Origin: a virus
Virus record (IMG/VR): IMGVR_UViG_3300042480_000267
Location: 1-36,626 of that record
Direction: 5' to 3' (one strand)
DNA: 36,626 bases
This document shows, piece by piece, positions 3,631-34,965 of the stretch (position 1 is its first letter; every line of letters starts with the position of its first letter). A program made the position numbers and the translations under genes. Below the pieces are notes generated by a model. That model saw nothing but the letters and a program-made list of their open reading frames with translations, was not told where the DNA came from and made no database searches.

Positions 3631-3642
3631 GGAGTTCCCCTT

Positions 3643-3947: not shown

Positions 3948-4056
3948 TGTCTGCTGGTTCGCCTTCTGTGCGGCACTCAGGACAGTACCGTCCTTGTGAC
4001 TGATGCCATGCTTCTTCGCAGGTGGGGCATACGTAGATGTGGGACAACGAGGTCAT
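3937..4056 (-). CDS. Small zinc-ribbon-like protein (39 aa)
   Basis: Reads MTSLSHIYVCPTCEEAWHQS... with two CxxC knuckles: CPTC at residues 10-13 and CPEC at residues 25-28, the pattern of a zinc ribbon. Acidic C-terminus. It overlaps the next gene by 11 bases. Too small for an enzyme; likely a protein- or nucleic-acid-binding zinc module. Found by direct translation of the gap between longer frames. Confidence 0.55.
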   Translation of the reverse strand: MTSLSHIYVCPTCEEAWHQSQGRYCPECRTEGEPADNED

Positions 4057-4068
4057 GGCTTTAGGTTA

Positions 4069-4200
4069 CTATGCCGCTTTGTGGCTGGCAAGGAGTTGCT
4101 CTATCCGTGCTACAAGATTCACTAGTTGTTCTTCTTCTGGTCCCCGAACCACTACTTTTACTAGGAAATTACGGATGGCGATAAGGTCTGCGAGAGTCAT
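4069..4200 (-). CDS. Small hypothetical protein (43 aa)
   Basis: MTLADLIAIRNFLVKVVVRG... then a regular amphipathic helix (PEEEQLVNLVARIEQLLASH). No transmembrane segment long enough to be certain. It lies between the membrane protein at 4217 and the zinc-ribbon gene with 12-16 nt gaps, in the same direction and spacing as its neighbours. Function unknown; a lysis accessory role is only suggested by position. Confidence 0.45.
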   Translation of the reverse strand: MTLADLIAIRNFLVKVVVRGPEEEQLVNLVARIEQLLASHKAA

Positions 4201-4216
4201 AGGACTCGCTAGGTTA

Positions 4217-4447
4217 TCAGTCTGGCTTAGTGATGTACGTTTCCACAAGGGTCAAACGGTTCTCAATTCTGTCAAGAGAATCCCGCAAAGACGACCCACT
4301 ATTCGGGCGCATCTGTTCCTCAACAAACCCCATCGCCTTCTCAATGCGCTTAGCCCAACGGTACATTGGCAGTAGCAACCCACGGTGAATAACACCAAGA
4401 GAAGCCACTGCCGCAGCGACCATCCCTAAGACCTGGATAGCGGTCAC
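4217..4447 (-). CDS. Small membrane protein, holin-like candidate
   Basis: 76 residues: one N-terminal transmembrane helix (about residues 3-26, IQVLGMVAAAVASLGVIH) followed by a basic patch and a soluble coiled-coil-prone tail (SSLRDSLDRIENRLTLVE). Its ATG overlaps the lysin stop by 4 bases. Single-span membrane proteins with such a tail are common next to actinophage lysins and may be holins or holin regulators. Two other small membrane proteins in this cassette compete for the holin role. Confidence 0.6.
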   Translation of the reverse strand: MTAIQVLGMVAAAVASLGVIHRGLLLPMYRWAKRIEKAMGFVEEQMRPNSGSSLRDSLDRIENRLTLVETYITKPD

Positions 4448-5013
4448 TTCCCGTCACACCACTGCCAGTGCCAGTGTTCAAACTCTGGCGACTTGATGTT
4501 GTTTCCCTGAAGGTAGAACCCGAACGTTGGTGCGTTCTCACACATCCATTTGAATCCTTTTTTAGCGGATGCCATGCCGACAATGTTGCCACCCTTACCC
4601 TCAACAGCGAGGTCAATAGCCAATCCCCAACCGTGGTTAGAACCTGACTTACCTGTCGGGTCTGGTGCAGCCGATGGTGCCTTGCCCTTCTTCAGAATCC
4701 AAGTCTTGCCGTCAAACTTGCGGGTCACTGTGTTCTTCTTGCCGAGGCGTGGGTCGTTCGGCTTGGCTACTTCATAGCGGTCCATGAACATTGCGAACTG
4801 TCCGTCATAAGAACGGTAGTCACCAATGTTGCGGAGTTGAACACCTGCTGCCATTGCTGCGTCATACATTTTGTTGAACGCTTCGGCTGCTTCCTTATAC
4901 ATTTTGCCGCCAGTCTTCACACCAACAAGAAGACTCTTGTCAAGACGACCATTGATTTGACCTTTCAAACCTGCTGGTACTACTAACTTTTTATATGGGA
5001 GTGTCTTTGACAT
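4444..5013 (-). CDS. Endolysin: M15 (VanY/D-Ala-D-Ala) peptidase
   Basis: 189 residues with the zinc-peptidase M15 signature SNHGWGLAIDL (Ser125, His127, Asp134) and the C-terminal EHWHW (Glu179, His182), which supply the metal ligands and general base. Residues 65-80 (YRSYDGQFAMFMDRYE) form the upstream part of the same domain. It would cut peptide cross-links or stems in peptidoglycan. There is no signal peptide, so it needs a holin. The N-terminal 40 residues may bind the wall. An AGGA Shine-Dalgarno lies about 7-9 nt before the ATG. This is the main lysin of the phage. Confidence 0.85.
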   Translation of the reverse strand: MSKTLPYKKLVVPAGLKGQINGRLDKSLLVGVKTGGKMYKEAAEAFNKMYDAAMAAGVQLRNIGDYRSYDGQFAMFMDRYEVAKPNDPRLGKKNTVTRKFDGKTWILKKGKAPSAAPDPTGKSGSNHGWGLAIDLAVEGKGGNIVGMASAKKGFKWMCENAPTFGFYLQGNNIKSPEFEHWHWQWCDGK

Positions 5014-5064
5014 TTGTTTGTTCCTGTGTTGCTTTTGTAATGGGGTGGGTGTACTATTTCTTTT

Positions 5065-5107
5065 GCCTCAGGCGGAGTTCTTTTCCCCTTTCTCCTTCGC
5101 CTGGGGC
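5065..5107. repeat. GC-rich inverted repeat between lysis genes
   Basis: Arms GCCTCAGGCG (5065-5074) and CGCCTGGGGC (5098-5107) pair with one G-T wobble around a 23-nt loop. TTTT follows on the plus strand, so it reads as a terminator only in the plus direction. On the minus strand it is a hairpin between the 56-residue gene and the lysin, perhaps limiting lysin expression. Confidence 0.35.
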
Positions 5108-5116
5108 TTTTACTAT

Positions 5117-5287
5117 CTACTCATCAGTTGCGATATTGAATACAGCAGCGAGGATGAGAACGACAAGGGTTGTCACGCTAATCATCAGAGCCTTGGACAA
5201 TGTAGGTCCTGACAGGGTGATGAGAACAAGTCCTGTACCTGATGCCCAGAGAAGTATGGAAACGATAACGCCTAGATATTTACGCAT
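5117..5287 (-). CDS. Two-span membrane protein, holin candidate (56 aa)
   Basis: MRKYLGVIVSILLWASGTGL... contains two hydrophobic segments (about residues 5-24 and 36-53) joined by a short loop with Lys32, and ends ATDE. Size and topology match class II holins. It lies directly upstream of the lysin gene, with a hairpin in the 103-nt gap, and downstream of the secreted Thr-rich protein. Found by translating the gap. Confidence 0.55.
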   Translation of the reverse strand: MRKYLGVIVSILLWASGTGLVLITLSGPTLSKALMISVTTLVVLILAAVFNIATDE

Positions 5288-5297
5288 GGGTACAAAT

Positions 5298-6362
5298 CTA
5301 CCATTTCATTCGGGTCGTGGCGGCGGCGGTCATTGTGACTGCGGCTAGGGTGACAAGGGTTCTACGGGTGGACACGGGGACATTAGAACCGACGGGGACG
5401 TAGGTGTCCAGACCACCACCGAAGATGTCTACGGTCTTCTCAAAGGCTTCTCGGACCTCTGTAGGGGCAGCACTGACCGAGGCTACAAGTTCTTCTAACT
5501 GGGCATCCGTTAGGTCATCAATGACGAGGGCTTCAAAGACCTGGGTTGCTTCTTCTTCAGTGATGGTTGCCAACACTTCAGGATTTAGGGCTATCTCTGT
5601 TGCTTGTTCTTCTGTAATGTTGGGTGGTATTGTTGATGTACTCGTAGGAATGGGAGTAGGTAATGTGGGTTCTGGAATGGGCGGCTGTGTTGTTGGCGGC
5701 ACTGACGTGCTTGATGTCGTGGTTGTGGTGGAAGGAGCAGCAGTAGATGTGGTGGTTTGAGGTGAAGTTGTGGCAGGCGCAACGGAAGTGGAAGAAACTA
5801 CAGGGGCAAGGGTTGTCGTTGTGGTTGTGGTTGTCGCTTCTGTGGTGGTTGTCGTTTGTTCTGTTGTTGTTGTCGGGGGGACAGTAGATGTCGTTGGCAG
5901 AGTGGTCGTTTGGGGTGGGTCCGTGGTTGTTGCTTGTGGGAGCGTTGTTGTGGGTGACACTGAAACGGTAGTTACAGCGCCCTGTCCGTAGCCCAGTTCA
6001 TACTGGACATTCCAAGTCACGCCATCACGCCAAACATCGGGCTGGTGACAACAAGTTCCTGCACGTAGACGGTACCTACCTGGCTCTAACTGCACAGACA
6101 AATAGGATTGCAAACCGTTGTAGTCATCGTTGCTGACAATCAATTCCCCTCCCTCTGTATACAGCCATAGTTGAGGGTCGGATGGGTAGCCTTCAGACTG
6201 ATAGGTCTGCGCTATGAACTGTGTCGGCTCGCTGTATTCAAACCAGAAGTCTGTTGGTTGGGTGACGATTATGTTTTCCGCTTTAGCACTGGATGACAGC
6301 AGTAAAGCAGAAGCGATAACCCCTATAAAAAATAGTGCGGCTCTATTGAGCCTGTGGGTCAC
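5298..6362 (-). CDS. Secreted protein with mucin-like Thr-rich linker
   Basis: 354 residues. A signal peptide (hydrophobic residues 9-25, AKA cleavage near 28) is followed by a beta-rich domain (30-130; FWFEYSEPTQF, PGRYRLRAGTCC) reminiscent of pre-peptidase C-terminal or adhesin domains. A long Thr/Pro/Ser linker spans about 135-245, with runs of up to nine Thr. An acidic helical domain (250-320, EEQATEIALNPEVLA, EEEATQVFEAL) leads to a weakly hydrophobic basic end. It lies inside the lysis cassette and overlaps the 89-residue holin-like gene by 20 bases. Thr-rich linkers of this kind are typical of actinobacterial surface proteins and are O-mannosylation targets. It may coat the cell surface or help disrupt the envelope. 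Function not known. Confidence 0.6.
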   Translation of the reverse strand: MTHRLNRAALFFIGVIASALLLSSSAKAENIIVTQPTDFWFEYSEPTQFIAQTYQSEGYPSDPQLWLYTEGGELIVSNDDYNGLQSYLSVQLEPGRYRLRAGTCCHQPDVWRDGVTWNVQYELGYGQGAVTTVSVSPTTTLPQATTTDPPQTTTLPTTSTVPPTTTTEQTTTTTEATTTTTTTTLAPVVSSTSVAPATTSPQTTTSTAAPSTTTTTSSTSVPPTTQPPIPEPTLPTPIPTSTSTIPPNITEEQATEIALNPEVLATITEEEATQVFEALVIDDLTDAQLEELVASVSAAPTEVREAFEKTVDIFGGGLDTYVPVGSNVPVSTRRTLVTLAAVTMTAAATTRMKW

Positions 6363-6612
6363 GCTTCACACCGAAGGCTGCGTCCACTTCATGTGCTTCT
6401 AACTTGCCGTCAAGGGATGACTTGGCGAGGTTGACGAGTACGTCTGCGATGGCATGGAAACCACCGAGGGCTGCCGAGTACCACAACGGGATGGACACGC
6501 CTGTGCCTACGGAGTTGATGATGCTAGAGCCTGTGATGATGGTAAGGCTGGACATGATGAACAACGCTACGATGCGGCTTGCTACGTCCTTGGCAATCTT
6601 CAATGACAACAT
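6343..6612 (-). CDS. Holin-like membrane protein (89 aa)
   Basis: Two predicted transmembrane helices (about residues 14-35, IVALFIMSSLTIITGSS, and 42-64, SIPLWYSAALGGFHAIADVL) separated by a short loop, then a soluble charged tail (KLEAHEVDAAFGVKRDPQ). This matches the holin-like proteins of many phages of aquatic bacteria. Shine-Dalgarno TAGGAGAA lies 8 nt before the ATG at 6612. It opens the lysis cassette right after the tail-collar gene. Confidence 0.6.
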   Translation of the reverse strand: MLSLKIAKDVASRIVALFIMSSLTIITGSSIINSVGTGVSIPLWYSAALGGFHAIADVLVNLAKSSLDGKLEAHEVDAAFGVKRDPQAQ

Positions 6613-6642
6613 TTTGGGGTTCTCCTACTGGTTGACCCCTCC

Positions 6643-6658
6643 AGGTATGGGTATACCT
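6643..6658 (-). terminator. Short hairpin after the tail-collar gene
   Basis: AGGTAT and ATACCT arms around a 4-nt loop, just past the stop of the collar gene. There is no T-run, so it is a weak terminator or an mRNA-processing hairpin between tail and lysis modules. Confidence 0.3.
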
Positions 6659-6665
6659 TAGCAGG

Positions 6666-7895
6666 TTAGTCGTGCTTGATGATGTAGTTCACGACCACAT
6701 GGGGCTGGAGGTAAGCCTCTGCACCGCCAGTATTGGCGTTGGTCATCGTGATTTCTGTACCAACTGTGGCTGTAATACCCGTGGTGTTTGATGCCGTTGA
6801 CTCAGTGTATGCGCCCACGCCTTGACCCTGCGCATTGATGACATTTATTTCGTTGTCACTCAAACTCGCTGCTGCTACAAGTTCCCCGTTGATAGTGTGT
6901 GTATGTCCAGGGTCGGTAATTGTGACAGTTCCCGAAGCCAAGACAGCAGTGTTTGCGTGGCTATGGCTTGGCAAGTTGTTCGTACCGATGGTAGTTGAAC
7001 CACCTGTTCCCAACAAGGTCAAAGAAGCACTGTCGCCCAAAGCGAAACGACCCTTGAAGTCAGGGGTCGTAGCACCAACAATGGCAGCCAACGCTGTATA
7101 GCCAGTGGTGGATGTGCCGTCACAAAGCAACCAACCTGTAGGTGCAGAAGCGCCACCATACATGGCGATAGTTCCGACAGGGACAAGAGCATTGGCGACA
7201 GCAGTAGCAAGGTCTGCTAACGCAACAGTGCCATTGACAAGGTTTGCTGATGCAACTGTGATGTCGGTAGGTAACGCACCTGTAGCCAACTTGCTGAGGG
7301 CGATAGCGGCTGAGGCATTGATATCTGCGTTGACAATTGCACCATCAAGAATCTTCCCTGATGTGATAGCCGAGTCAGCAATTCCGTCGGTACCTACGGT
7401 TGCCCACTTCACACCACCGTCAGCCACCGTGGAATCAGCAACCAACACCTTATTATTGTTGCCAGAACCACCAGTAGAAATAGTCTTAGGACCAGTTGTT
7501 CCATGAACCACAATGTCACCATTGGTGGTGTACTTAGACACAAGTTCATTAGCCTGGTTTGCTTCGGTAGCGGTAAACACTGGGTAGATAGTTGCGCCAA
7601 CATCATGCGCCCTGTCTGTCGTGTCGTCAACACCACGACCATTAACTGATGCTGACCAGGCTGAAGTAACAGCAGGGTCAACCACAGTCAACGTGGTGGC
7701 AGAAGCATAGATAACACAAATCTTTTCTTCTTTGGCTGTGCCAGGGTCCACAACAACAAAGAAAGGTGTCCCACTTGTGGACCATCCAGACATTGATGCT
7801 GCAAGAGTGATGCTTGTAGCGTTAGCGGCAAGACCGCTACCACCCAAAGCATTGATTACTGCTGCACCTTTATAAGACCTGCGTGAATAAGCCAT
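6666..7895 (-). CDS. Tail fibre with Tail Collar domain
   Basis: 409 residues. The Tail Collar signature occupies about residues 240-295: VPVGTIAMYGGASAPTGWLL, then CDGTSTTGYTALAAIVG and TPDFKGRFALGDS. The C-terminal region has the glycine-rich, His-containing metal-binding look (LPSHSHANT, DPGHTHTING) of T4 gp12-like tips, ending in HVVVNYIIKHD. The N-terminal 230 residues are beta-rich and repetitive. It is the last gene of the tail module and probably a receptor-binding or short tail fibre. Confidence 0.85.
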   Translation of the reverse strand: MAYSRRSYKGAAVINALGGSGLAANATSITLAASMSGWSTSGTPFFVVVDPGTAKEEKICVIYASATTLTVVDPAVTSAWSASVNGRGVDDTTDRAHDVGATIYPVFTATEANQANELVSKYTTNGDIVVHGTTGPKTISTGGSGNNNKVLVADSTVADGGVKWATVGTDGIADSAITSGKILDGAIVNADINASAAIALSKLATGALPTDITVASANLVNGTVALADLATAVANALVPVGTIAMYGGASAPTGWLLCDGTSTTGYTALAAIVGATTPDFKGRFALGDSASLTLLGTGGSTTIGTNNLPSHSHANTAVLASGTVTITDPGHTHTINGELVAAASLSDNEINVINAQGQGVGAYTESTASNTTGITATVGTEITMTNANTGGAEAYLQPHVVVNYIIKHD

Positions 7896-7904
7896 TGTTA
7901 TCTC

Positions 7905-9779
7905 CTAGTTTTCCACTGAACGCAAGGTTACAACAAGCGTCCCGTTAAATTGCCATGTATTCCCCTGCGAATCTGACGCATCCCACTGCAAATCTTCCAA
8001 AATTACTGAGTGCGTAACCGAACCCATTTGCAAAGCAATGATACGAGGTGAGCCGATTAGCCCATCAAAAAATGATTGTTCTTCTTCAACGTCGTAGTAA
8101 TACTCTTTGCCACGGACAGTGACCGACTGGTGGAGCAGGACAGGAACAACGAATACTTGTGAACGGAACGGTGCGGCATATGCTCTAGCCATCCAACGGG
8201 TGAATGTTGGTCCTGTTGATGTGGCAGTGGAGGACCTGGTGAGGACGTACTTGAATTCTGCTTCAATGGCTCGTGTGTCGGAACCGTCAAAGGAGTTTTC
8301 AATGTCGTTGCCTGTGTCCCATACGCCTACTTCCGTGTAGTCGCCGTCGTCTAGTTTTAGATAGGAAGCGATGGACCCTACAAGGGGGGTGGAACGTGTG
8401 TCTATCTTGGCTACGAACTTACGGTCTGGGATACCCCAACGCCATGTGCCTGTTTCAATCTCGCCTGATGCAACAAGGTTGGCTGAATCTTCAGCGACAA
8501 CACCGACACCTGAAATTGTAAAAAGCCTTTTACCTGCAAGAGTGGCAACTGACTGAACATCGTTACCAGATGCGTACATTAAGTCAGTAGAAAAAGCAGG
8601 TGTGTTAGGTGCAATAAAACTGGACAGGTCAAGACGACCCAAACCGCCTAATGCGTTCTCATATCTTGACCATGCAAACCAAACGAAACGGTCCTCACTG
8701 CTGAAACCTTTGACATCCCCTGATGTTGGTATCAACGAACCAGCAAGAAGACCGCCTTGGGAATCTGTTGAACAGAATCGGACACCTTTGTTTGTGCCGA
8801 TGACAACGAAACCAAGGTAACCATGTAACGCTGTTGGGTATTCCCCTGTTGGTAGTTCTAAAGCAACGATGGCGACATCTACTGTGCCGTCTGTTTTGAT
8901 ACCTAAACGGTAGACAATGCCTGCATCGTTTGAATATCCCGCTACGTAGATAGCGTTTTGCCCGCCAACAATTCCTGTGCAAACAAAGTTCGGGTCACGC
9001 AATGTTGCTGTTGCTGTACCGTGAGAAGTGCTGGCAGCATAAGGAATAATATGAACATGGGTATTGGCGGTATCGTTGTGTACGCCAACAACGAAACCTT
9101 TAGCGAAACCAAGTTTTGTGTAGTTATATGTACCGCCTGATGTGGCGTAATGGTCAGCAACAGAAGAACCACCGATGGTTGTCATCATCACACCCTCATT
9201 GGCGTATGCAACATAAATTTGTTTGCCGTCAGTAATGATGTCGTTGATTGCGGCGGTGGGCGCACCAGTAGTTACCGAAGTCCAAGTAGGAGTAGCAGCG
9301 TATGGGTTGGTGCTGTACTTTAATGTTTGCCCGTCAGCCACATAGATGTAGCCGTTGACCTCAATCATTTTGAGGTTTGTCCCTGTCATAGCAGATGACG
9401 ACGGCAGTCTAGTTGCGTTAAGCAACGACAACTGACCCTTCACCCAAGGGTTAATACCCTTAGACTTGTAGAACATGTAGTCCTTAGATTCGGCAGTGTC
9501 GGCATAGCGTTGACCCGCACCAAAATGCCATGAGTCCTGACCACGCCTCCACAAACCACCAGGGTTAATAGCACCCTCACCAGGGCTGGTGGAATCGTCC
9601 GTTGAATCACGAACACGCTGCTCATAGCCACGTTTGAACTGATTTGATTTCTGGTCAATCATGTATGGACGACCATCAATAGCGACAGGGAAAGTGTGCG
9701 GCACCAAAGATGATGAGGCTGTACCAGAAAAATACGGTGGTGTGCCAACATACGGCAGTGTGAAGGTCGGTACCGCCAT
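7905..9779 (-). CDS. Large tail protein (nozzle or propeller-like candidate)
   Basis: 624 residues. The sequence is beta-rich with repeating blocks (INDIITDGKQIYVAYANEGV; GQNAIYVAGYSNDAGIVYRL; FVVIGTNKGVRFC; DRFVWFAWSRYENA) that look like blades of a beta-propeller (about residues 150-420). A C-terminal beta domain (500-624) follows. No membrane segment or signal. In short-tailed phages a protein of this size and build forms the tail nozzle, so this is my leading guess. The alternative is a baseplate or fibre-attachment protein. It lies immediately downstream of the 295-residue adaptor-like gene (3 nt gap). Confidence 0.6.
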   Translation of the reverse strand: MAVPTFTLPYVGTPPYFSGTASSSLVPHTFPVAIDGRPYMIDQKSNQFKRGYEQRVRDSTDDSTSPGEGAINPGGLWRRGQDSWHFGAGQRYADTAESKDYMFYKSKGINPWVKGQLSLLNATRLPSSSAMTGTNLKMIEVNGYIYVADGQTLKYSTNPYAATPTWTSVTTGAPTAAINDIITDGKQIYVAYANEGVMMTTIGGSSVADHYATSGGTYNYTKLGFAKGFVVGVHNDTANTHVHIIPYAASTSHGTATATLRDPNFVCTGIVGGQNAIYVAGYSNDAGIVYRLGIKTDGTVDVAIVALELPTGEYPTALHGYLGFVVIGTNKGVRFCSTDSQGGLLAGSLIPTSGDVKGFSSEDRFVWFAWSRYENALGGLGRLDLSSFIAPNTPAFSTDLMYASGNDVQSVATLAGKRLFTISGVGVVAEDSANLVASGEIETGTWRWGIPDRKFVAKIDTRSTPLVGSIASYLKLDDGDYTEVGVWDTGNDIENSFDGSDTRAIEAEFKYVLTRSSTATSTGPTFTRWMARAYAAPFRSQVFVVPVLLHQSVTVRGKEYYYDVEEEQSFFDGLIGSPRIIALQMGSVTHSVILEDLQWDASDSQGNTWQFNGTLVVTLRSVEN

Positions 9780-9782
9780 TGC

Positions 9783-10670
9783 TTAATCCCTGTTTAGGAA
9801 AGTTGGGTATTGCCTCATAAGTTTTGCTGCTTCAGATGTGATGCGGTCACGACGCATACGCAACAAGTTAGTGATTGAGTTGCTAACAGACCCAGACGGA
9901 ACCTCATCTGGACGGCGGGTGTCGCCTTGTGATTCTGTGAAGTTGCGTTTGATTTCTCGTGGACCAACTAAACGAATCTGCGAACCGATAATCAGGATGT
10001 CTTCACATGATGTTGGAAGACCAGTGACATTCTGGATGTTTTGTGTTTCTGCTGTGATGTTGCTGAATGGTGACTTGTATACGATAACCATTCGTCCTGC
10101 ACGTACCTGCTCATCAAAACGGATGGCGTATCCAGTGTTGAAGTCATCATTAGGGAGGTCACGAATAAGTCGGCAACGGCGAACCTTGATGTAGTCGGTT
10201 GAGATGTAGCGTAATGAAACTGAAATCAAGTCAATGATTTTGTCTGTTGTCGGCAGGTTAACCATTAGGTCGGTGCCGTTGTAGTTCAACTCCAAGATTT
10301 TGATTTGGAACAAACCGTTCATAGGGCTTGCCAAGTCATCCAGTTCAGCGTTCATCGCTTCTAGGATTTGCGCTCTAGGGAACTTAGGGTCTACGGTTGC
10401 AACAGAAGACGCAGCATGGGCGGCTGCTGTGGTGCCGTTCCAACCTCGCTCAACAGTCACAGACTTTGAACCAGCAGAGATTTCCCATACATACATGAGT
10501 TCGTTATCTATTTGGATAACCCCACCAGGTCGGATACCGCTAAGGTCGTATTGAAACGTGACACTTGTAACAGTTGCGTTGATAGCAAGAGTTGTTTTGT
10601 TACGTTCTTCTACAGTGCCAGACATTAACTGGCGTACTGTCCTATCAATAACGGTACCGACGGTGGACAT
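9783..10670 (-). CDS. Virion adaptor / tail-tube-like protein (candidate)
   Basis: 295 residues. It opens with MSTVGTVIDRTVRQL, then a compact beta domain (30-100: GVIQIDNELMYVWEIS, VERGWNGTTAAAHA) that resembles the OB-like module common in phage connector proteins. A helical segment at 105-130 (FPRAQILEAMNAELDDL) is typical of tail-completion or adaptor proteins. The C-terminus is basic (LLRMRRDRITSEAAKLMRQYP). Its ATG follows the TAA of the Lys-rich gene directly. Position next to the large tail protein supports a role at the head-tail junction. Not certain. Confidence 0.55.
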   Translation of the reverse strand: MSTVGTVIDRTVRQLMSGTVEERNKTTLAINATVTSVTFQYDLSGIRPGGVIQIDNELMYVWEISAGSKSVTVERGWNGTTAAAHAASSVATVDPKFPRAQILEAMNAELDDLASPMNGLFQIKILELNYNGTDLMVNLPTTDKIIDLISVSLRYISTDYIKVRRCRLIRDLPNDDFNTGYAIRFDEQVRAGRMVIVYKSPFSNITAETQNIQNVTGLPTSCEDILIIGSQIRLVGPREIKRNFTESQGDTRRPDEVPSGSVSNSITNLLRMRRDRITSEAAKLMRQYPTFLNRD

Positions 10671-10811
10671 TTACTTCTTCTTAGCCTTAGCCTTACGCAC
10701 TGGAGCCTTCTTGGACTTGTTCATTTTCATTCCCTTTTCCTTGGCTTCAGCCTTCGCCATAGCCATTCCCTTAGCAGTGTATGGGAATTCTTTTTTTCCG
10801 ACCATTGGCAT
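10671..10811 (-). CDS. Small Lys-rich conserved phage protein (46 aa)
   Basis: MPMVGKKEFPYTAKGMAMAK... with a very basic C-terminus (RKAKAKKK). Proteins starting VGKKEFPYTAKG are familiar to me from podoviruses of aquatic bacteria, where they lie among structural genes. Likely virion-associated or DNA-binding. The TAA abuts the next ATG at 10670. Confidence 0.6.
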   Translation of the reverse strand: MPMVGKKEFPYTAKGMAMAKAEAKEKGMKMNKSKKAPVRKAKAKKK

Positions 10812-10841
10812 TTGTTGCTCCTAATTGTTGAGGTGACTACA

Positions 10842-11879
10842 TCATAGCCGATACCATGTGAGGTTGGCTTCAAGTCGTTCATCTTCTGGGTTGAGGGCTA
10901 ATGCTTCGCTTCCGTGGAACCAGGCTTCGTCATGGTCGCCAAGGTGGTAGCAGGCAAGCGCCATGTAATCATGGATTTCCCAACCCCATGCTTCTGGTTC
11001 GCAGAAGTAATCTGTTGGTTTGGTTGTGGTTCGGAACGCCATTTCGCAGGATGCTCGGCAGGCAGCCCAGTCTTCTTTGGTGCGGTAAAGGTTGGCTAGG
11101 TCTACCCAGTTTTCACGGCGGGTCGGGTCTTCCGCTACTGCTTTATACAGGTGATGTTCGGCAGAGTCGGGTCGCATCTTCGCCAAGTAACGGTGTGAGG
11201 CTGCTCGTTCGGGGTTCCATTGGGAGATGGATAAGTGCCGTGAGAAGTGGTGTTGGGCTAGTGCATATCGTCCATGATAATAGTATTCACGGGCTAGGTA
11301 GAACTGGATACGTTCGTCGTTGGTGTTTTCTTCGGCTGCCAGTTTTAACATTTCTAGGTATTGACCACGGGATTTTGTGTTGTCAGGGTGGTGGTGAATT
11401 TCTAACCCATAAACATGGGTAGAGTTTTCTGTTGCTACTGGAGTAAGAACTTCATGGATTGGGTACTTCCATGTGTGACTATGCCTGCCGTGGATGCGAC
11501 CAATGGTAAACGATTGTCCTTCTGAACCGTCAGCATGGAACGTGGTTACGACCTTGTGTTTAACCATGTTGATATCTGGGGATAAGTTTTCTAAGACTTG
11601 TCGCCACCCTGGGGTTAACACCTCGTCCATATCTAGGGAGATACACAGGTCTATATCGTCAGGTAAACATGTGAGTGCCACGTTGCGGGCGTGGTCAAAA
11701 CGCCACGGGTCAAAAGTTTCTGTCTCTACAGTGACATCACAGTCCCATGCTATTTGTCGGGTATTGTCCGTTGAGCCTGTGTCAAGGATTAACCTATAGT
11801 CGGCTTCTTCGCATGACTTAGCCCATCGTGCTACGTGCTTGGCTTCGTTCTTGGCGATTGTGTAGACCGCTATTTTCAT
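10842..11879 (-). CDS. Glycosyltransferase family 2 with C-terminal TPR-like repeats
   Basis: 345 residues. The N-terminal 160 residues are a GT-A fold glycosyltransferase: YTIAKNEAKHV, LDTGSTDNT and the metal-binding DxD in LDMDEVLTPGW (Asp83, Asp85), then GRIHGRH. Residues 170-345 look like TPR helices (EYYYHGRYALAQHHFSRHL; VDLANLYRTKEDWAACRASC; ACYHLGDHDEAWFHGSEAL). It transfers a sugar from a nucleotide donor. The acceptor could be a virion protein such as the Thr-rich collagen fibre or host surface glycan. It is embedded in the tail-fibre module, which favours virion glycosylation. Confidence 0.8.
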   Translation of the reverse strand: MKIAVYTIAKNEAKHVARWAKSCEEADYRLILDTGSTDNTRQIAWDCDVTVETETFDPWRFDHARNVALTCLPDDIDLCISLDMDEVLTPGWRQVLENLSPDINMVKHKVVTTFHADGSEGQSFTIGRIHGRHSHTWKYPIHEVLTPVATENSTHVYGLEIHHHPDNTKSRGQYLEMLKLAAEENTNDERIQFYLAREYYYHGRYALAQHHFSRHLSISQWNPERAASHRYLAKMRPDSAEHHLYKAVAEDPTRRENWVDLANLYRTKEDWAACRASCEMAFRTTTKPTDYFCEPEAWGWEIHDYMALACYHLGDHDEAWFHGSEALALNPEDERLEANLTWYRL

Positions 11880-29178: not shown

Positions 29179-31155
29179 CTACTGGTTGAGCCACGATGGT
29201 CGCCACTGACGGGGAGGTAACTTCATCTGTGTCAGGTTCGGGATGTTCAAGACAGCCATCCACATACTCATCACAATGTCGGTACCAGACTTTTTATCTC
29301 TAGTCCATTTTGTTAGTTCTTCTACAGCAGCGAGGGTTTTCCAGTTGCCACGCATATGGGGTAGACGGATAGCACCTGTGCGGAATACCTGTGGGAGTAG
29401 GGCTTCAACACCCATCTTTTCATCCAGTTTGTTACGGCTTGTGGTGTGTGGAACTACGTTGACTCCACGGCTGGACTGCCATTTGCGTACAAAGTCGTGC
29501 GCTAAAAGGAATCGTTGGGCTGCGTTAATCTCTACAACCCAGTGCGAGATGGGGTATCCCATGCGGAGTGACCGTTCTTGCCAGTCATCCATGATTCCTG
29601 AGTATTCACCTGTGGTGGTGTTGTATCCAAGCAGGTCTTCTGCTGTCAGTTTGCAGCGTTCAATGTCAATAACGTGGTACAGATTGGTTTCTGGCTGGTA
29701 CAAAATCCATGTTAACGCCCAGAACATAGTTGGTGATGGGTCAACCGCCACAATAGACAAAACAGGCGGGGCAAGACCTGGGGGTATTTCTCCATGTCCA
29801 CGTTCATGGTCAATACAGCCCTGATATTGGACACCATCTGCGCCCATACCGCCATTAATCCACACCCTGTCAATAAGGTATGCGTCTAAATCCAACTCTC
29901 CCTGTTGATACACCACTTCAAACACTTCAGGTTTGTTATAACGGATAAAAGATAGGTCTTTCCAGGGGAGACGCTTCGGTTCTAGGAGTGGACCGTCAGG
30001 ATATGGGGGTGCGTCAAAACGTCGTGACTCTTTACCTGTGTCAAGGTCAGGATAATACGCCTGATAAATGATGTGTTTGTACTTTTGTGATTTCAATGGT
30101 TCCATTGATTCCACCTGTTCAGGTGTGATTATGTCCGACCCGTCATAATCTTCATCATCCAGGTCATAAGCAACTTTGGAGAGACAGTGTGCGTATAGGT
30201 CGCCTGGTCCGAGGCGCTGTCCAACAACCGCCAGTAGCCCACCTGGGTCGCAACGTGCTTCTGCCACGTTGTCCCATCTTTCAAGAAGTTTATCTCTGGC
30301 GACAGATTCACGGGCGTTATCAGGTGAAGCCACGTCGTCAAATAGGCAGAGGTCGGCACGGTGTCCGATGAACTCTGCTTCAATACCGTAAGCACGAACA
30401 GTCGGTTCCTTGTTGTCAAGTCCATTCCCATCTAGTTGTTCCACTACAAATTCGTCTGCTCGCCATAATGCGCCTTTATCGGTTGGTTTGAATCTGCCGT
30501 AGTCAATGGAAAGGCATCCTTGTGCGTCTTGGGCTAAGCCTTTGCGTACCAGTTGGGGGTCTGGTTGGATAGGCATAGGACGTTCAAGGGTTTCACGGAT
30601 ACGGCGGGAGTACAACTTCGCCATGTTCTGCGATACAGACCCAATCATGATACGAATCTTGCGGTCACGGACAATCGCCCATACCGCTACATCGTGGAAC
30701 AAGGTGGACTTTCCCGCACCTGGGGGGACGTTCACTACAACGAATTCTTTTTCCTCAGACTCCAACAGTTTGACTAGTTCCAAGGCTGCTTCTACTTGCC
30801 AAGGTGATGGGACACGACCAAGGTAGTACTCACGGAAGAAAGCAAAGTCTTCTTTACCGTGTTGCGCTTCAGGGCAAAGCCTGTCATCAGGTACAGCAGA
30901 TGGTAAATCAATCGCATCCATGAAGGCGTTGTATTCGTCACGTTGCTCGCCACCCTCGTTGCGTCTTACCTTGGCTGCTTTAGCGTCTGTCTCTTTACGG
31001 AGAGCCTCGGCTGCTTTCGCTTTCGCCACCCATTTAGAACCAGTATTGACATGGATGCCAGCAGTGCGGGAGGCTTGGGTGATTGTTTGTCCAGCAGTTA
31101 TCGCTGCGAAGAATTTGGCTTTATCCGCAGGGGATACAGTACGTTTTGTTCCCAT
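29179..31155 (-). CDS. Terminase large subunit with fused N-terminal HTH
   Basis: 658 residues. Residues 1-50 carry a helix-turn-helix (AGQTITQASRTAGIHVNTGSK) like that of small terminases. The ATPase follows: Walker A PPGAGKST (about 144-151) and Walker B LCLFDDV (269-275). The nuclease begins with VAVDPSP (about 469-475), whose Asp binds metal, and continues to the C-terminus. It cuts and packages DNA into the prohead with the portal. No separate small terminase is seen, so the HTH could recognise the packaging site. Its ATG directly follows the HNH stop. Confidence 0.85.
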   Translation of the reverse strand: MGTKRTVSPADKAKFFAAITAGQTITQASRTAGIHVNTGSKWVAKAKAAEALRKETDAKAAKVRRNEGGEQRDEYNAFMDAIDLPSAVPDDRLCPEAQHGKEDFAFFREYYLGRVPSPWQVEAALELVKLLESEEKEFVVVNVPPGAGKSTLFHDVAVWAIVRDRKIRIMIGSVSQNMAKLYSRRIRETLERPMPIQPDPQLVRKGLAQDAQGCLSIDYGRFKPTDKGALWRADEFVVEQLDGNGLDNKEPTVRAYGIEAEFIGHRADLCLFDDVASPDNARESVARDKLLERWDNVAEARCDPGGLLAVVGQRLGPGDLYAHCLSKVAYDLDDEDYDGSDIITPEQVESMEPLKSQKYKHIIYQAYYPDLDTGKESRRFDAPPYPDGPLLEPKRLPWKDLSFIRYNKPEVFEVVYQQGELDLDAYLIDRVWINGGMGADGVQYQGCIDHERGHGEIPPGLAPPVLSIVAVDPSPTMFWALTWILYQPETNLYHVIDIERCKLTAEDLLGYNTTTGEYSGIMDDWQERSLRMGYPISHWVVEINAAQRFLLAHDFVRKWQSSRGVNVVPHTTSRNKLDEKMGVEALLPQVFRTGAIRLPHMRGNWKTLAAVEELTKWTRDKKSGTDIVMSMWMAVLNIPNLTQMKLPPRQWRPSWLNQ

Positions 31156-31689: not shown

Positions 31690-31708
31690 AATCCCACTTT
31701 AGCACACT

Positions 31709-31969
31709 TCACCATTTCACACGGTCACTCCAGTATGCAGCAGACATTTTTCCTTTGGATATGTTACCAGCGTGGCGGGCTTTAAATGCTTTGTTTCGTG
31801 CCGAACCTTCTGGTGAACCTTTTACACCTTGCTGTCCGAAACGTATGGTTTTTATCTGGTCGCCTACTTTGGCTACGACAACGTGTGATTTTGTTGGGTG
31901 GCTAGGGGTGGCTTTGGGTTTGTTGAAACCTGTGACTCCTGCTCGTTTAAGGCGAGGGTCTTGTGGCAT
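31709..31969 (-). CDS. Conserved small phage protein (86 aa)
   Basis: Begins MPQDPRLKRAGVTGFNKPK, then TPSHPTKSHVVVAK, IKTIRFGQQGVKGSP and ends KMSAAYWSDRVKW. I recognise this signature from proteins of podoviruses infecting aquatic bacteria, encoded close to structural genes. Basic, possibly nucleic-acid-binding. Function unknown. Its ATG overlaps the upstream TAA (TAATG). Confidence 0.65.
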   Translation of the reverse strand: MPQDPRLKRAGVTGFNKPKATPSHPTKSHVVVAKVGDQIKTIRFGQQGVKGSPEGSARNKAFKARHAGNISKGKMSAAYWSDRVKW

Positions 31970-32480: not shown

Positions 32481-32501
32481 CTAGATGTGCTGGTCATCTA
32501 G
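32481..32501. repeat. Perfect 7-bp hairpin
   Basis: CTAGATG and CATCTAG around a 7-nt loop. First of five stem-loops within 300 nt. Confidence 0.5.
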
Positions 32502-32597
32502 TGTTTTACTAGCGCCCTTGCTTCGCTGCGGTTGCTGCCAGGAAGATGTGAGCAAGTGGTCCGACAAGTTAGAACTGGTGGGTGACTTCATGGTCTG

Positions 32598-32621
32598 CAA
32601 GAACTTGAACTGGTGTTCTTG
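32598..32621. repeat. Hairpin containing a GAAC-N4-GTTC core
   Basis: Outer arms CAAGAAC and GTTCTTG (7 bp, 10-nt loop). Inside lies GAAC-TGGT-GTTC (32607-32618), a degenerate LexA-like half-site pair, with T at the first spacer position and T-T ends instead of C-G. Confidence 0.4.
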
Positions 32622-32637
32622 AGAACCACTCGTAGTG

Positions 32638-32682
32638 TGTTCTTCCAGAACAACTACTTTTTCTTTTTTCCGTTTTTCTTTT
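32638..32682 (+). terminator. Hairpin plus T-tract, plus-strand terminator-like
   Basis: TGTTCT and AGAACA (6-bp stem, TCC loop) followed by a T-rich tract (32658-32682). In the plus direction it resembles a terminator, although no plus-strand gene lies upstream. It would fit the end of a small RNA starting near 32480, or block transcription entering the control region. Confidence 0.35.
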
Positions 32683-32711
32683 ACAAAGACCATTTGTCTC
32701 CAGCCAGTGAA

Positions 32712-32729
32712 TTGCTCTAGACAGAGCAA
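32712..32729. repeat. Perfect 7-bp hairpin with 4-nt loop
   Basis: TTGCTCT and AGAGCAA with loop AGAC. Adjacent to the nested stem at 32731. Confidence 0.5.
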
Positions 32730-32730
32730 C

Positions 32731-32775
32731 GGCTCGGACCATACGTAAAACTCTAGGTCCACCGCTTCAAGAGCC
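32731..32775. repeat. Nested two-part stem
   Basis: GGCTC/GAGCC (32731-32735 with 32771-32775) encloses GGACC/GGTCC (32736-32740 with 32756-32760), leaving a 10-nt bulge on one side. Together with the preceding hairpin it suggests a folded RNA or a structured origin. Confidence 0.4.
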
Positions 32776-32926
32776 ACACACACCCAACCACTCTCAGTAG
32801 TCAACCCCCACTCAGAGTCACACACGCTCAAAACCACCAAAAGAGTGAAACCATAACTCTCCAGTAATACATATATACAGGGGGGGATGCCTCGGCACAT
32901 ACCCTAGTTGCGTTAGGCTACCTAGG

Positions 32927-32938
32927 AATAATAGTTGC
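32927..32938. repeat. 12-bp direct repeat, copy 1
   Basis: AATAATAGTTGC, found again at 34856-34867. In both places it follows a TTAGG...CCTA palindrome. The copy here lies in the leftward promoter candidate. Confidence 0.55.
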
Positions 32939-32955
32939 AAATGCAACAATCTAAA
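32928..32955 (-). promoter_or_regulatory. Candidate leftward promoter with palindrome in the spacer
   Basis: Minus strand: TTTAGA (-35), 16 bp, TATTAT (-10). The inverted repeat GTTGCA-AA-TGCAAC (32934-32947) fills the spacer exactly, as an operator would. It could start the leader of the minus-strand block, about 530 nt before the first candidate gene. Confidence 0.4.
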
Positions 32956-33050
32956 CAGCCTGTGACTTTTCATACTGCTAACTCCAGCAAGCACCCCGCT
33001 ACCCCCAGCAACCAATAAAAAATAGGTAGCCAGCCCCTCACACTGCCTAT

Positions 33051-33072
33051 GTAGACAAGTTGTAGACAAGTT
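33051..33072. repeat. Tandem 11-bp repeat
   Basis: GTAGACAAGTT twice in direct succession. Possibly an iteron or protein-binding repeat; no further copies seen nearby. Confidence 0.45.
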
Positions 33073-33155
33073 GGTTGTGTGTTGCTACTTGCTAGTTGGT
33101 TGGGGAGTCGGGGGCTGTTGGTCTGGACCGTTGTTCTAGTTTGTGTCTGTTAGAC

Positions 33156-33169
33156 CGAACGTGTGTTCG
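33156..33169. promoter_or_regulatory. LexA (SOS) box 1
   Basis: CGAAC-GTGT-GTTCG. Every position fits the Gram-positive/actinobacterial SOS consensus CGAAC-RNRY-GTTCG. It abuts the first Crp-like palindrome. Host LexA would bind it and release it after DNA damage. Confidence 0.75.
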
Positions 33170-33185
33170 TGTGACATATGTCACG
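33170..33185. promoter_or_regulatory. Crp/GlxR-like palindrome 1
   Basis: TGTGA-CATATG-TCACG, one mismatch to TGTGA-N6-TCACA. The central GTGACATATGTCAC is a perfect palindrome. It directly follows LexA box 1. No TTGACA promoter at the usual 10-bp distance, so it may serve a different promoter. Confidence 0.6.
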
Positions 33186-33223
33186 TTGTAATTGGGTGGG
33201 GTATCGGGTAGACTACCGCCGAC

Positions 33224-33237
33224 CGAACAAGTGTTCG
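33224..33237. promoter_or_regulatory. LexA (SOS) box 2
   Basis: CGAAC-AAGT-GTTCG, again a full match to CGAAC-RNRY-GTTCG. It is 59 bp upstream of the -35 of promoter P1. Confidence 0.75.
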
Positions 33238-33244
33238 TGTTTGG

Positions 33245-33260
33245 ATACCCTTGGGGGTAT
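33245..33260. promoter_or_regulatory. ATACCC/GGGTAT palindrome, CsoR-like
   Basis: ATACCC-TTGG-GGGTAT, 6-bp perfect arms. Similar to operators of CsoR-type copper repressors (ATACCC...GGGGGTAT), but one base shorter. It may belong to another regulator. Confidence 0.3.
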
Positions 33261-33269
33261 GTTTGGGGG

Positions 33270-33285
33270 TGTGACGGAAGTCACA
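33270..33285. promoter_or_regulatory. Crp/GlxR-like palindrome 2
   Basis: TGTGA-CGGAAG-TCACA, a perfect TGTGA-N6-TCACA. Exactly 10 bp before the -35 of P1. Confidence 0.7.
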
Positions 33286-33295
33286 GTAGAAAGAC

Positions 33296-33324
33296 TTGAC
33301 AAGTGTGTTACGGTCTGATACAGT
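33296..33324 (+). promoter_or_regulatory. Early promoter P1
   Basis: TTGACA, 17 bp, TACAGT, with a TG two bases... before the -10 (TGATACAGT). Expected start near 33331. A consensus -35 and ideal spacing indicate host sigma70-type polymerase. The Crp-like site is centred about 53 bp upstream of the start. Confidence 0.75.
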
Positions 33325-33362
33325 GGTACACATCAAGGAGATACCGAAAGGGTCACTGAGAT

Positions 33363-33378
33363 AGTGACGAAAGTCACA
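33363..33378. promoter_or_regulatory. Crp/GlxR-like palindrome 3
   Basis: AGTGA-CGAAAG-TCACA, one mismatch. 10 bp before the -35 of P2 and about 33-48 bp downstream of the P1 start. A further GTCACT lies at 33352-33357, so as RNA this segment could also form alternative hairpins with a GAAA loop. Confidence 0.65.
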
Positions 33379-33388
33379 CAGGAAATAC

Positions 33389-33417
33389 TTGACAAAGTGT
33401 GAAACACTTGATAGAGT
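33389..33417 (+). promoter_or_regulatory. Early promoter P2
   Basis: TTGACA, 17 bp, TAGAGT. Expected start near 33424, just before the parS site. It drives the first plus-strand gene. Confidence 0.75.
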
Positions 33418-33439
33418 AGTTACTAACAGATAGGGAAAA

Positions 33440-33455
33440 TGTTTCACGTGAAACA
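33440..33455. promoter_or_regulatory. parS partition site 1
   Basis: TGTTTCACGTGAAACA, a perfect 16-bp palindrome identical to the bacterial chromosomal parS consensus (TGTTNCACGTGNAACA). It lies in the 5' leader of the P2 transcript, 19 bp before the first gene. ParB, probably host-encoded, should load here. Confidence 0.85.
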
Positions 33456-33474
33456 TTTTAGAGATAGGGAAACA

Positions 33475-33642
33475 ATGGACAAGTTCACAGAGACGGTAAC
33501 GGTGACACTCACCAAATACCAATGGGAGAGAGTAGAGCACGCTCTGTTCTGTTACAAGGTAGACGCATTGCTAGAAGACGCAATGGCAAGTTACAAGACA
33601 TACGGCGAAGTATTGGAAGCAGTAGAAAGCCAGGTAGCGTAA
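33475..33642 (+). CDS. Early small protein 1 (55 aa)
   Basis: MDKFTETVTVTLTKYQWERV..., acidic and helical, with a strand-helix-helix look (TVTVTLTKYQWERVEHALF). An RHH-like fold is possible but unproven. I start at 33475 behind AGATAGGGAAAC. An upstream in-frame ATG at 33439 would translate the parS site (MFHVKHF) and is less likely. TAATG overlap with the next gene. Confidence 0.65.
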   Translation: MDKFTETVTVTLTKYQWERVEHALFCYKVDALLEDAMASYKTYGEVLEAVESQVA

Positions 33643-33845
33643 TGACAAGAAAAGACTACGAGGCAATCGCCAAGGCTATCAACAATGTCCGCAACGATTG
33701 GGGAGCGCCTAACGGCGGACTAATCCCAACGGAGGCAAGGCACGCTATGGAAGAAATAGAGTATGCGCTTGCAAAAGTATTCGCACAAGAAAATCCACGA
33801 TTTGACAAAGACAAGTTTTTCATGGCTTGTTGGCACGGGAACTAG
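33642..33845 (+). CDS. Early small protein 2 (67 aa)
   Basis: Starts at the ATG overlapping the previous TAA. Reads MTRKDYEAIAKAINNVRNDW, then a helix HAMEEIEYALAKVFAQENP and FDKDKFFMACW. The RKDYE...I...FD...F..AC pattern recurs in small proteins of many phages, where function is unknown. Soluble, probably helical. Confidence 0.65.
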   Translation: MTRKDYEAIAKAINNVRNDWGAPNGGLIPTEARHAMEEIEYALAKVFAQENPRFDKDKFFMACWHGN

Positions 33846-33859
33846 AAAGGACTAGAACA

Positions 33860-34057
33860 ATGGAACAAGGCAAGCGATACAGCGTCACAAATTGGGATAC
33901 CACCAACCCTAAAAAAGAAATGACAGTATGGACAGATACCGTTCTTAGTGGTTGGGTGCGGGGACATGTCACGAAGAAAGGCTACCCACTAGTAGACACT
34001 TGCGTATGGACAAGATACCTAGCAGATAGTTGGACATGGACAGAGATTAGCGAATAA
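33860..34057 (+). CDS. Early small protein 3 (65 aa)
   Basis: Start at 33860 behind GAAAGG (9 nt). MEQGKRYSVTNWDTTNPKKE..., rich in Trp and Thr, predicted all-beta. No family recognised. Followed by a structured intergenic RNA. Confidence 0.6.
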   Translation: MEQGKRYSVTNWDTTNPKKEMTVWTDTVLSGWVRGHVTKKGYPLVDTCVWTRYLADSWTWTEISE

Positions 34058-34064
34058 CTAAACG

Positions 34065-34127
34065 GGGCTAGACCGATTAGGTCGGCAAGGGTTCACGACC
34101 CTACTAGCCCACTACCCCACAACGGGG
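34065..34127 (+). ncRNA. Three-way-junction RNA structure plus hairpin
   Basis: GGGCTAG (34065-34071) pairs with CTAGCCC (34104-34110). Inside are CCGA/TCGG (34073-34085, loop TTAGG) and AGGGT/ACCCT (34088-34102, loop TCACG), giving a compact three-way junction of 46 nt. A CCCC/GGGG hairpin (34115-34127) follows. All stems are perfect. The 7-bp outer stem and the GGGTTC-containing arm recall a tRNA without anticodon arm, but the T-loop consensus and a CCA end are missing. Possible leader element, riboregulator or tRNA relic, located between two genes. Confidence 0.45.
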
Positions 34128-34152
34128 CACAACAGAAAAGGACAATAGGACA

Positions 34153-34311
34153 ATGAAAAAGTACGAGACATTTAGCGAACGCTTGTTCGCAGAGGCGAGA
34201 CTATGCCGAAACTTGGGAGACATCAAGGGTGCTGAGGCGTGGGAGCGTCAAGCGGAACAGGAACGGGAATATGAACAACAGGGACAGGGATACCACTACG
34301 AGACAGTGTGA
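34153..34311 (+). CDS. Early small protein 4 (52 aa)
   Basis: MKKYETFSERLFAEARLCRN... continuing with a Glu/Gln-rich helix (ERQAEQEREYEQQGQGYHYE). Predicted one long helix. AGGACA precedes the ATG. Its TGA is part of Crp-like palindrome 4, and a CGAAC-N4-GTTCG palindrome (34175-34190) lies within the frame. Function unknown. Confidence 0.6.
   Translation: MKKYETFSERLFAEARLCRNLGDIKGAEAWERQAEQEREYEQQGQGYHYETV
34175..34190. promoter_or_regulatory. LexA-like palindrome inside a gene
   Basis: GCGAAC-GCTT-GTTCGC, 6-bp perfect arms. It fits the CGAAC-N4-GTTCG frame but has T where the SOS consensus has a purine. Codes for residues SERLFA, so it may be chance. Confidence 0.3.
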
Positions 34312-34322
34312 CATGAGTCACA
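34307..34322. promoter_or_regulatory. Crp/GlxR-like palindrome 4
   Basis: TGTGA-CATGAG-TCACA, a perfect TGTGA-N6-TCACA. It overlaps the stop codon of the preceding gene and lies only 22 bp before the -10 of P3. Confidence 0.7.
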
Positions 34323-34344
34323 GTGGAAATAACGAATAGCACGA

Positions 34345-34350
34345 TATCGT
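34345..34350 (+). promoter_or_regulatory. Early promoter P3 (-10 only)
   Basis: TATCGT followed by GTTAC, the same -10 region as P4, but no -35. The Crp-like palindrome is centred about 42 bp before the expected start (near 34357), the position of class II Crp-activated promoters. It is 11 bp closer than at P1, P2 and P4. Confidence 0.55.
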
Positions 34351-34382
34351 GTTACTCATAGCCAACAGAAAGGGAAACTAAA

Positions 34383-34652
34383 ATGGCTACAACAATACAA
34401 CAGGCAACGGTACGAAAGTCCTACCGTGTCACTATCCAAACTAAGTTCATGGAGAACAGTAGAACCATCAAGGTATGGCACTACGGGGGCAAGATGACTG
34501 CCCCATGGACTGACGAGTTAGACCCCGTGGACAACCACGCCAACGCTATCCAAATGTATCTAGACAAGATGGAATGGGGCGGTAAGTGGGTTATCGGGGC
34601 AAGTGTTGATGGATACGGATATGTAGCAGTGTGCGAGGGTGGTGCGAACTAA
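34383..34652 (+). CDS. Early small protein 5 (89 aa)
   Basis: MATTIQQATVRKSYRVTIQT... beta-rich with HYGGKMTAPWTDELDP and a helix (NHANAIQMYLDKMEW). Leader GCCAACAGAAAGGGAAA and the first codons ATGGCTACA are shared with the gene at 34996, though the proteins are otherwise different. Unknown function. Confidence 0.65.
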   Translation: MATTIQQATVRKSYRVTIQTKFMENSRTIKVWHYGGKMTAPWTDELDPVDNHANAIQMYLDKMEWGGKWVIGASVDGYGYVAVCEGGAN

Positions 34653-34843
34653 TGAAAACGGCAACAGAATTACACAGCGCAATCGGAAAGGTTGCAGACT
34701 ACAACAAAATAGAAGGGGTTAGTTTCACCGTAGCAATCATTGACGCTAGGGAACGGTTCGGAAATACGGACTACCTCATATCACCAATGTCGGGGACTGG
34801 TTCGGTGTGGGTGTCACACTGGTCAGTGAAGAATGTTAGGTAA
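34652..34843 (+). CDS. Early small protein 6 (63 aa)
   Basis: Start overlaps the previous TAA (TAATG). MKTATELHSAIGKVADYNKI... ends VWVSHWSVKNVR. Small alpha/beta protein. Its last codons (GTTAGGTAA) are part of the iron-box-like site, so the stop region is under double constraint. Confidence 0.6.
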   Translation: MKTATELHSAIGKVADYNKIEGVSFTVAIIDARERFGNTDYLISPMSGTGSVWVSHWSVKNVR

Positions 34844-34854
34844 GCCTAACCTAT
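34836..34854. promoter_or_regulatory. DtxR/IdeR-like iron box
   Basis: TTAGGTAAGCCTAACCTAT matches 17 of 19 positions of the DtxR/IdeR consensus TTAGGTTAGCCTAACCTAA (differences at positions 7 and 19). It overlaps the end of the preceding gene and lies upstream of A/T-rich TATAAATAAT and of parS 2. Confidence 0.65.
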
Positions 34855-34881: not shown

Positions 34882-34897
34882 TGTTTCACGGGAAACA
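34882..34897. promoter_or_regulatory. parS partition site 2 (one mismatch)
   Basis: TGTTTCACGGGAAACA differs from parS 1 only by G for T at position 10. It is intergenic, 14 bp before Crp-like palindrome 5. Likely a weaker ParB site. Confidence 0.65.
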
Positions 34898-34910: not shown

Positions 34911-34926
34911 TGTGACGAAAGTCACT
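34911..34926. promoter_or_regulatory. Crp/GlxR-like palindrome 5
   Basis: TGTGA-CGAAAG-TCACT, one mismatch. 10 bp before the -35 of P4, as at P1 and P2. Confidence 0.65.
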
Positions 34927-34936
34927 AAACAAATAC

Positions 34937-34965
34937 TTGACATTGGTACAGGACTACTGTATCGT
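34937..34965 (+). promoter_or_regulatory. Early promoter P4
   Basis: TTGACA, 17 bp, TATCGT. Expected start near 34972. Drives the gene at 34996 and probably the rest of the plus-strand run. Confidence 0.7.

Follow-up and report, generated by a model that had tools for sequence, protein, structure and literature searches.

Host LexA, together with the phage protein gp7, controls promoter P1 of the Bacillus tectivirus GIL01, where the LexA boxes of the early promoter lie at the transcription start or downstream of it; GIL01 has no damage-sensitive repressor of its own and does not integrate (PMC4551915). Sites of the cell-cycle regulator CtrA are strongly skewed to phage promoters in several lineages of alphaproteobacterial phages, and in phi29 the host protein Spo0A represses phage promoters and Spo0J/ParB holds the phage genome (both described in PMC9437464). 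Among phages of Actinobacteria, the tectiviruses have been scanned for LexA sites and none were found (PMC6950372). The cultured Planktophila phages LanE43-AprE7 and LanE43-AprF5 (E7 and F5) carry WhiB, glycosyltransferases, and ArdA (PMC10202952).

The window in this work is the whole stretch of DNA that was analysed, an IMG/VR virus record that is a 36.6-kb linear fragment. The control region of its early genes contains two LexA boxes. We consider it likely, from sequence comparison, that these boxes are operators through which host LexA represses a promoter between them (P0) and the neighbouring Crp-activated early promoters, so that lytic growth would be triggered by DNA damage.

The phage group and its host

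The minus strand of the window encodes the large terminase, portal, and major capsid proteins, collagen-like tail fibres, and glycosyltransferases, as well as a RecE-like exonuclease, an annealing protein, and a RusA resolvase. The early genes are very small and form a cluster that points rightward from about 33475; the first of them (33475-33642, plus strand) encodes 55 amino acids without family match. Aligned with G001, a near-complete relative, the window seems to lack about 2.5 kb between its two ends. The terminase large subunit (29179-31155, minus strand; phrog_38, 4e-58) was the query used for gathering relatives, which are the best 80 of 224 terminase matches in IMG/VR. The nucleotide search matched Roseobacter phages only over about 250 bases (near 31700-31960), which is uninformative for the control region.

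WhiB was found in 19 of 26 related records, and the WhiB profile gave a signal in Corynebacterium only among 14 control genomes. These results indicate that the hosts are Actinobacteria, a placement to phylum level. The major capsid protein of the phage group shares about 42% identity with proteins of Streptomyces phages, and homologues of the window phage are present in E7 and F5.

LexA boxes and promoter P0

The palindrome CGAAC-N4-GTTCG that characterises LexA operators of Gram-positive bacteria and Actinobacteria occurs as box 1 (CGAACGTGTGTTCG, 33156-33169) and box 2 (CGAACAAGTGTTCG, 33224-33237). The sequence-only reading had reported two perfect SOS boxes 55 bp apart; both are exact matches, and the gap between them is 54 bp (68 bp from start to start). 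The arms of the boxes fit the LexA motif of Streptomyces venezuelae, tCGAAC-N4-GNNCGa (PMC9380542). That box 1 abuts a Crp-like palindrome was also read correctly, as the box ends at 33169 and TGTGAC of Crp-like site 0 (TGTGACATATGTCACG, 33170-33185, plus strand) starts at 33170.

A predicted promoter that had been missed in the sequence-only reading, P0 (TTGTAA-17-TAGACT, 33186-33214, plus strand), is bracketed by both boxes and starts 15 bp after the start of Crp-like site 0. Its transcription start is predicted at about 33221, so that box 2 begins about three bases past it and occupies about +4 to +17. Counterparts of P0 with the same spacing were identified in three relatives, namely TTGTAA/TAGAAT in L006, TTGTTT/TAGACT in L008, and GTGGAA/TAGGCT in L004. 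The spacing is thus retained in four sequences; the hexamers of P0 are weak, and those of L004 are not conserved. Box 1 is identical in the same three relatives, and among the close relatives compared the LexA arms are invariant and the spacer of box 2 is variable. In both L004 and L006, 11 bp are inserted between box 1 and the Crp-like site, which amounts to about one helical turn. No leftward promoter was identified under the boxes by eye or by promoter scan.

A strongly conserved G-tract palindrome (TACCCTTGGGGGTA, 33246-33259) lies between box 2 and Crp-like site 1. It looks similar to a CsoR copper operator but was rejected as one because it reads TAC-X8-GTA, one base short of the TAC-X9-GTA that is required by the CsoR consensus (PMC3902906).

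A third LexA-like site (CGAACGCTTGTTCG, 34176-34189) with exact arms, which is absent from the sequence-only reading, lies inside a small early gene (34153-34311, plus strand, 52 amino acids), where it spans the codons of SERLFA. Its spacer satisfies R-NN-Y and fails the strict RNRY. The spacer differences in its counterpart in L008 are all synonymous, so coding may explain this site; the protein sequence probably constrains it in part, and we do not use it as support.

Enrichment in the control regions of relatives

In 51 dereplicated upstream regions of relatives, CGAACn4GTTCG occurs at 38 sites in 17 records, and it is absent from 433 kb elsewhere in the same phages, which is twice the amount of control-region sequence. 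Permuted arms average 0.3 sites upstream and 0.6 elsewhere in this set. The 19 non-redundant large records have 21 LexA sites upstream of the terminase and none in 514 kb elsewhere, compared with averages of 0.2 and 1.0 for 29 arm permutations; spacers other than 4 gave 0 or 1 sites upstream. All 38 sites have a purine at the first and a pyrimidine at the fourth spacer position, a property of LexA operators that was not imposed by the search. The motif recurs at many positions in the relatives with differing spacers. In dinucleotide shuffles of 32501-34400 (n=20,000), one site occurred 12 times and two or more sites never occurred.

The motif is short and the search space is large, which is what would favour chance palindromes in a palindrome-rich intergenic region. 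The shuffles, the permuted-arm and spacer controls, and the count of 38 against 0 in the relatives refute this origin statistically, and the probability that is left to it is negligible. A compositional artefact of freshwater actinophages was rejected as well, because E7 and F5 have no site; neither genome contains a LexA, Crp-like, DtxR-like, or parS site.

An unbiased palindrome scan with arms of 5 bases and spacers of 0-12 placed three other motifs among the top together with CGAACn4GTTCG. These are GTGACn4GTCAC (59 sites in 22 records, 0 elsewhere), TTAGGn4CCTAA (25 sites in 18 records, 1 elsewhere), and GTTTCn4GAAAC (14 sites in 11 records, 0 elsewhere). From their consensus sequences we take them to be Crp/GlxR, DtxR/IdeR, and ParB/parS sites, respectively. 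As judged from these motifs, the control region contains at least four host-type operators, the LexA operator among them. TTGCAn2TGCAA is also enriched upstream in the relatives (9 sites in 9 records, 1 elsewhere), and the window contains TTGCAAATGCAA at 32935-32946. A perfect LexA site is present in only 13 of the 33 relatives with long upstream sequence and none of the four motifs in 7 of them, so the wiring is lineage-dependent.

Crp-like, parS, and iron-box sites

All Crp-like sites and promoters that follow are on the plus strand. The core of Crp-like site 1 (GTGACGGAAGTCAC, 33271-33284) starts 25 bp before promoter P1 (TTGACA-17-TACAGT, 33296-33324), which lies downstream of both LexA boxes, in agreement with the sequence-only reading. 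The core of site 2 (GTGACGAAAGTCAC, 33364-33377) is followed by promoter P2 (TTGACA-17-TAGAGT, 33389-33417). The core of site 3 (GTGACATGAGTCAC) lies at 34308-34321. The core of site 4, again GTGACGAAAGTCAC (34912-34925), starts 25 bp before promoter P3 (TTGACA-17-TATCGT, 34937-34965). A TTGACA-like hexamer lies exactly 25 bp from the palindrome start in 33 of the 59 Crp-like sites of the relatives, and nearly all of these hexamers are followed by TANNNT 17 bp on. A few promoters lie at 15 bp from the Crp-like site, one helical turn less. The locus thus has the TGTGA-type palindrome at a fixed helical distance to the -35 hexamer that marks Crp/GlxR-activated promoters. The 25-bp distance in the upstream regions of the relatives (L004-L083) is an unusual spacing for Crp activation.

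The leader of the first early gene contains a perfect canonical parS (TGTTTCACGTGAAACA, 33440-33455). A second parS-like site (GTTTCACGGGAAAC, 34883-34896), a one-base variant, lies in an early leader, and L006 has the perfect GTTTCACGTGAAAC in an equivalent context. The canonical parS, GTTTCACG[T/G]GAAAC, is present in 7 of the 33 long upstream regions of the relatives. A DtxR/IdeR-like iron box (TTAGGTAAGCCTAA, 34836-34849) is situated upstream of an early promoter. One contig that was examined, L225, has fourteen dispersed GTTTCn4GAAAC palindromes, mostly GTTTCTGCCGAAAC, at 148-11602. They were rejected as parS because their core is not that of parS, and they resemble operators of an unidentified regulator.

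Motif-only scan of viral contigs

Viral contigs (2.9 million) were scanned for LexA boxes lying no more than 30 bp from a Crp-like site; 61 stretches were retrieved, compared with 1 stretch for the control with permuted LexA arms. LexA boxes within 30 bp of a DtxR-like site were found in 46 stretches, a count without a separate permuted control. Homologues of window proteins are encoded in 48 of the 94 loci found by the two scans together, and the terminases among these homologues are as little as about 25% identical. DNA syntax alone therefore retrieves the same phage group. The matches in L185, L224, L228, and L182 were set aside, as they look like chance occurrences in coding sequence.

The gap is 0-5 bp in 31 of 81 LexA-Crp composites. 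Of the promoters that could be placed, 18 are on the Crp side and 3 on the LexA side; both counts are from composites that are not fully dereplicated. This geometry suits mutual exclusion of LexA and the activator, in addition to direct occlusion at P0.

Some loci with two or more boxes have no window homologue in the portion that was examined, such as L172 and L203. Both contigs, which are 50 and 70 kb long, exhibit alternating tandem arrays of LexA and Crp-like sites (L172:14300-14440 and L203:220-1010), some of them gapless, that adjoin the DnaA-box-like TTATCCACA. LexA, DtxR-like, and Crp-like sites are interleaved in L207:3797-3900, L195 (reverse strand), and L171:3240-3360, and in L207 and L195 the interleaved sites are located immediately 5' of an early promoter.

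Such dense arrays, the presence of several boxes per genome, and the box within a coding region at 34176 are what would be expected if the boxes were decoys that titrate host LexA (and Crp and DtxR) during multiplication of the phage genome and disturb host regulation. Titration needs no particular geometry, however, whereas box 2 lies at the start of P0, box 1 abuts the activator site, and the Crp-like sites are locked exactly 25 bp (33 of 59), or occasionally 15 bp, from a -35 hexamer. Decoys are therefore an unlikely explanation of the boxes, and titration could be a second effect beside promoter control.

Search for phage-encoded regulators

The sequence-only reading had found neither lexA nor an integrase in the window, and the window contains none. 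Extending the search for integrase and repressor genes to the records of the relatives gave the same result. Peptidase_S24, the domain of LexA and CI, was absent from 21 records of relatives, which are fragments. Tyrosine integrase and ParB_N were not found in the same number of records, and serine recombinase was not found in 26 records. Two scans of genome contigs retrieved no prophage copy or terminase relative. Among 72 early proteins of five relatives, no repressor was recognisable, ParA had no match, and WhiB was the only regulator recognised. The phage group therefore resembles GIL01 in having no autocleaving repressor of the LexA/CI type (0 of 21 fragmentary records) and no sign of integration, and it resembles phi29 in having a canonical chromosomal parS (33440-33455) with no ParB of its own (0 of 21 records).

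A phage-encoded repressor that recognises the LexA palindrome, as part of an ordinary immunity system, was weighed against these results. Many early genes have no family match, any small protein among them could be such a repressor, and a few kilobases of the genome are missing from the window. The searches of the 21 records and the 72 early proteins argue against it, as does a motif that equals the LexA consensus of S. venezuelae in every detail and that stands beside Crp-like or DtxR-like sites even in contigs without detectable window homologues. We regard a repressor of this kind as quite improbable. A small phage co-repressor like gp7 of GIL01 is possible, because the records are fragments and many small early proteins have no family match.

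Proposed control by host regulators

The direct use of host LexA that had been suggested by the sequence-only reading is strongly supported by sequence: by the enrichment of 38 sites against 0, the spacer rule in 38 of 38 sites, the conservation around a promoter, the actinobacterial host indicated by WhiB, and the lack of a phage peptidase in the records searched. The earlier proposal was incomplete, as further host-type operators accompany the LexA boxes, and P0 rather than P1 appears to be most directly under LexA.

As long as the actinobacterial cell is undamaged, LexA bound as dimers to boxes 1 and 2 would keep the Crp-dependent P0 closed. Occupancy of box 2 would cover the transcription start of P0, and occupancy of box 1 could exclude or misplace the activator at the abutting Crp-like site. 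LexA may also hinder P1 via the nearby Crp-like site 1. Upon DNA damage, RecA* would cleave LexA and P0 would open; transcripts would then extend rightward past P1 and P2 to the early genes, and lytic growth would begin. We infer LexA binding, repression, damage induction, and the dormant state from the arrangement of these sites. The Crp-like sites predict cAMP dependence, the DtxR-like site at 34836-34849 predicts that the downstream cluster is additionally controlled by iron, and the parS at 33440-33455 predicts binding of host ParB for segregation or silencing.

The phage may instead be purely lytic, with the boxes for host LexA only delaying early transcription in healthy cells (lytic deferment or pseudolysogeny) and no heritable dormancy. 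Host LexA would still be the repressor under this alternative, and only the lifestyle would differ from that of damage-triggered escape from dormancy. It is consistent with the lack of an integrase in any record and of a prophage copy, with the description of E7 and F5, which are cultured relatives, as phages that lyse their host (PMC10202952), and with the precedent of CtrA sites in alphaproteobacterial phages (PMC9437464). However, perfect parS sites in the same region suggest maintenance through host division, and a damage trigger is typical of dormant phages. We hold a purely lytic life to be quite possible, if short of probable.

Under repression of P0 by host LexA, host stress sensors rather than a repressor of the phage's own probably decide when the phage grows. 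More tentatively, this may be a lineage without an immunity system of its own, in which host LexA (damage), Crp (cAMP and energy), and DtxR/IdeR (iron) together gate the early promoters by way of interleaved operators and host ParB segregates a non-integrated genome via parS; we offer this fuller scheme as a possibility that is rather less than even.

The question concerns the decision between growth and waiting in phages of abundant freshwater Actinobacteria, for which neither integrase nor repressor was found here. If the proposal is true, these phages leave the decision to host sensors, so that host lysis would follow a directly testable rule (damage, iron, and cAMP), and any virome could be searched for the DNA signature with no need of protein homology. 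Arrays of alternating host operators, as in other contigs, would then be natural multi-input promoters.

Comparison with known systems

The closest relatives in culture are the Planktophila phages E7 and F5 and the Streptomyces phage Manuel, and their lack of a LexA box weighs against control by host LexA. The Planktophila phages E7 and F5 are similar to the window phage as freshwater actinophages of about 39 kb, with a major capsid protein of about 41% identity, a terminase large subunit of about 25% identity, and further homologues. The Streptomyces phage Manuel group (Beephvirinae) is similar in its major capsid protein (about 42% identity in the relatives) and in the gene order of terminase, endonuclease VII, portal, and giant protein. 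It differs in having its own primase and helicase as well as tRNAs, and in having no LexA or parS site.

The phages with CtrA sites share with this locus host-regulator sites at phage promoters, and differ in that their regulator is CtrA, not LexA with metabolic and metal sensors (PMC9437464). phi29 is similar in the use of a host repressor and host ParB; it differs in being tied to sporulation, and LexA, Crp, and DtxR sites are not described for it in that work (PMC9437464). GIL01 is similar in the position of LexA boxes at or downstream of an early promoter start. It differs in being a Bacillus tectivirus with a linear genome of 15 kb and a requirement for gp7 (PMC4551915), whereas the phage in this work is a tailed phage of Actinobacteria that adds Crp-like, DtxR-like, and parS sites and for which a relative of gp7 was not identified. 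In the literature searched, which left most subscription papers outside it, we found no phage control region reported to combine LexA, Crp, DtxR, and parS sites. The control of phage early promoters by host LexA is already known from GIL01, and what looks new in this phage group is the stacking of several host sensors together with a host-type parS.
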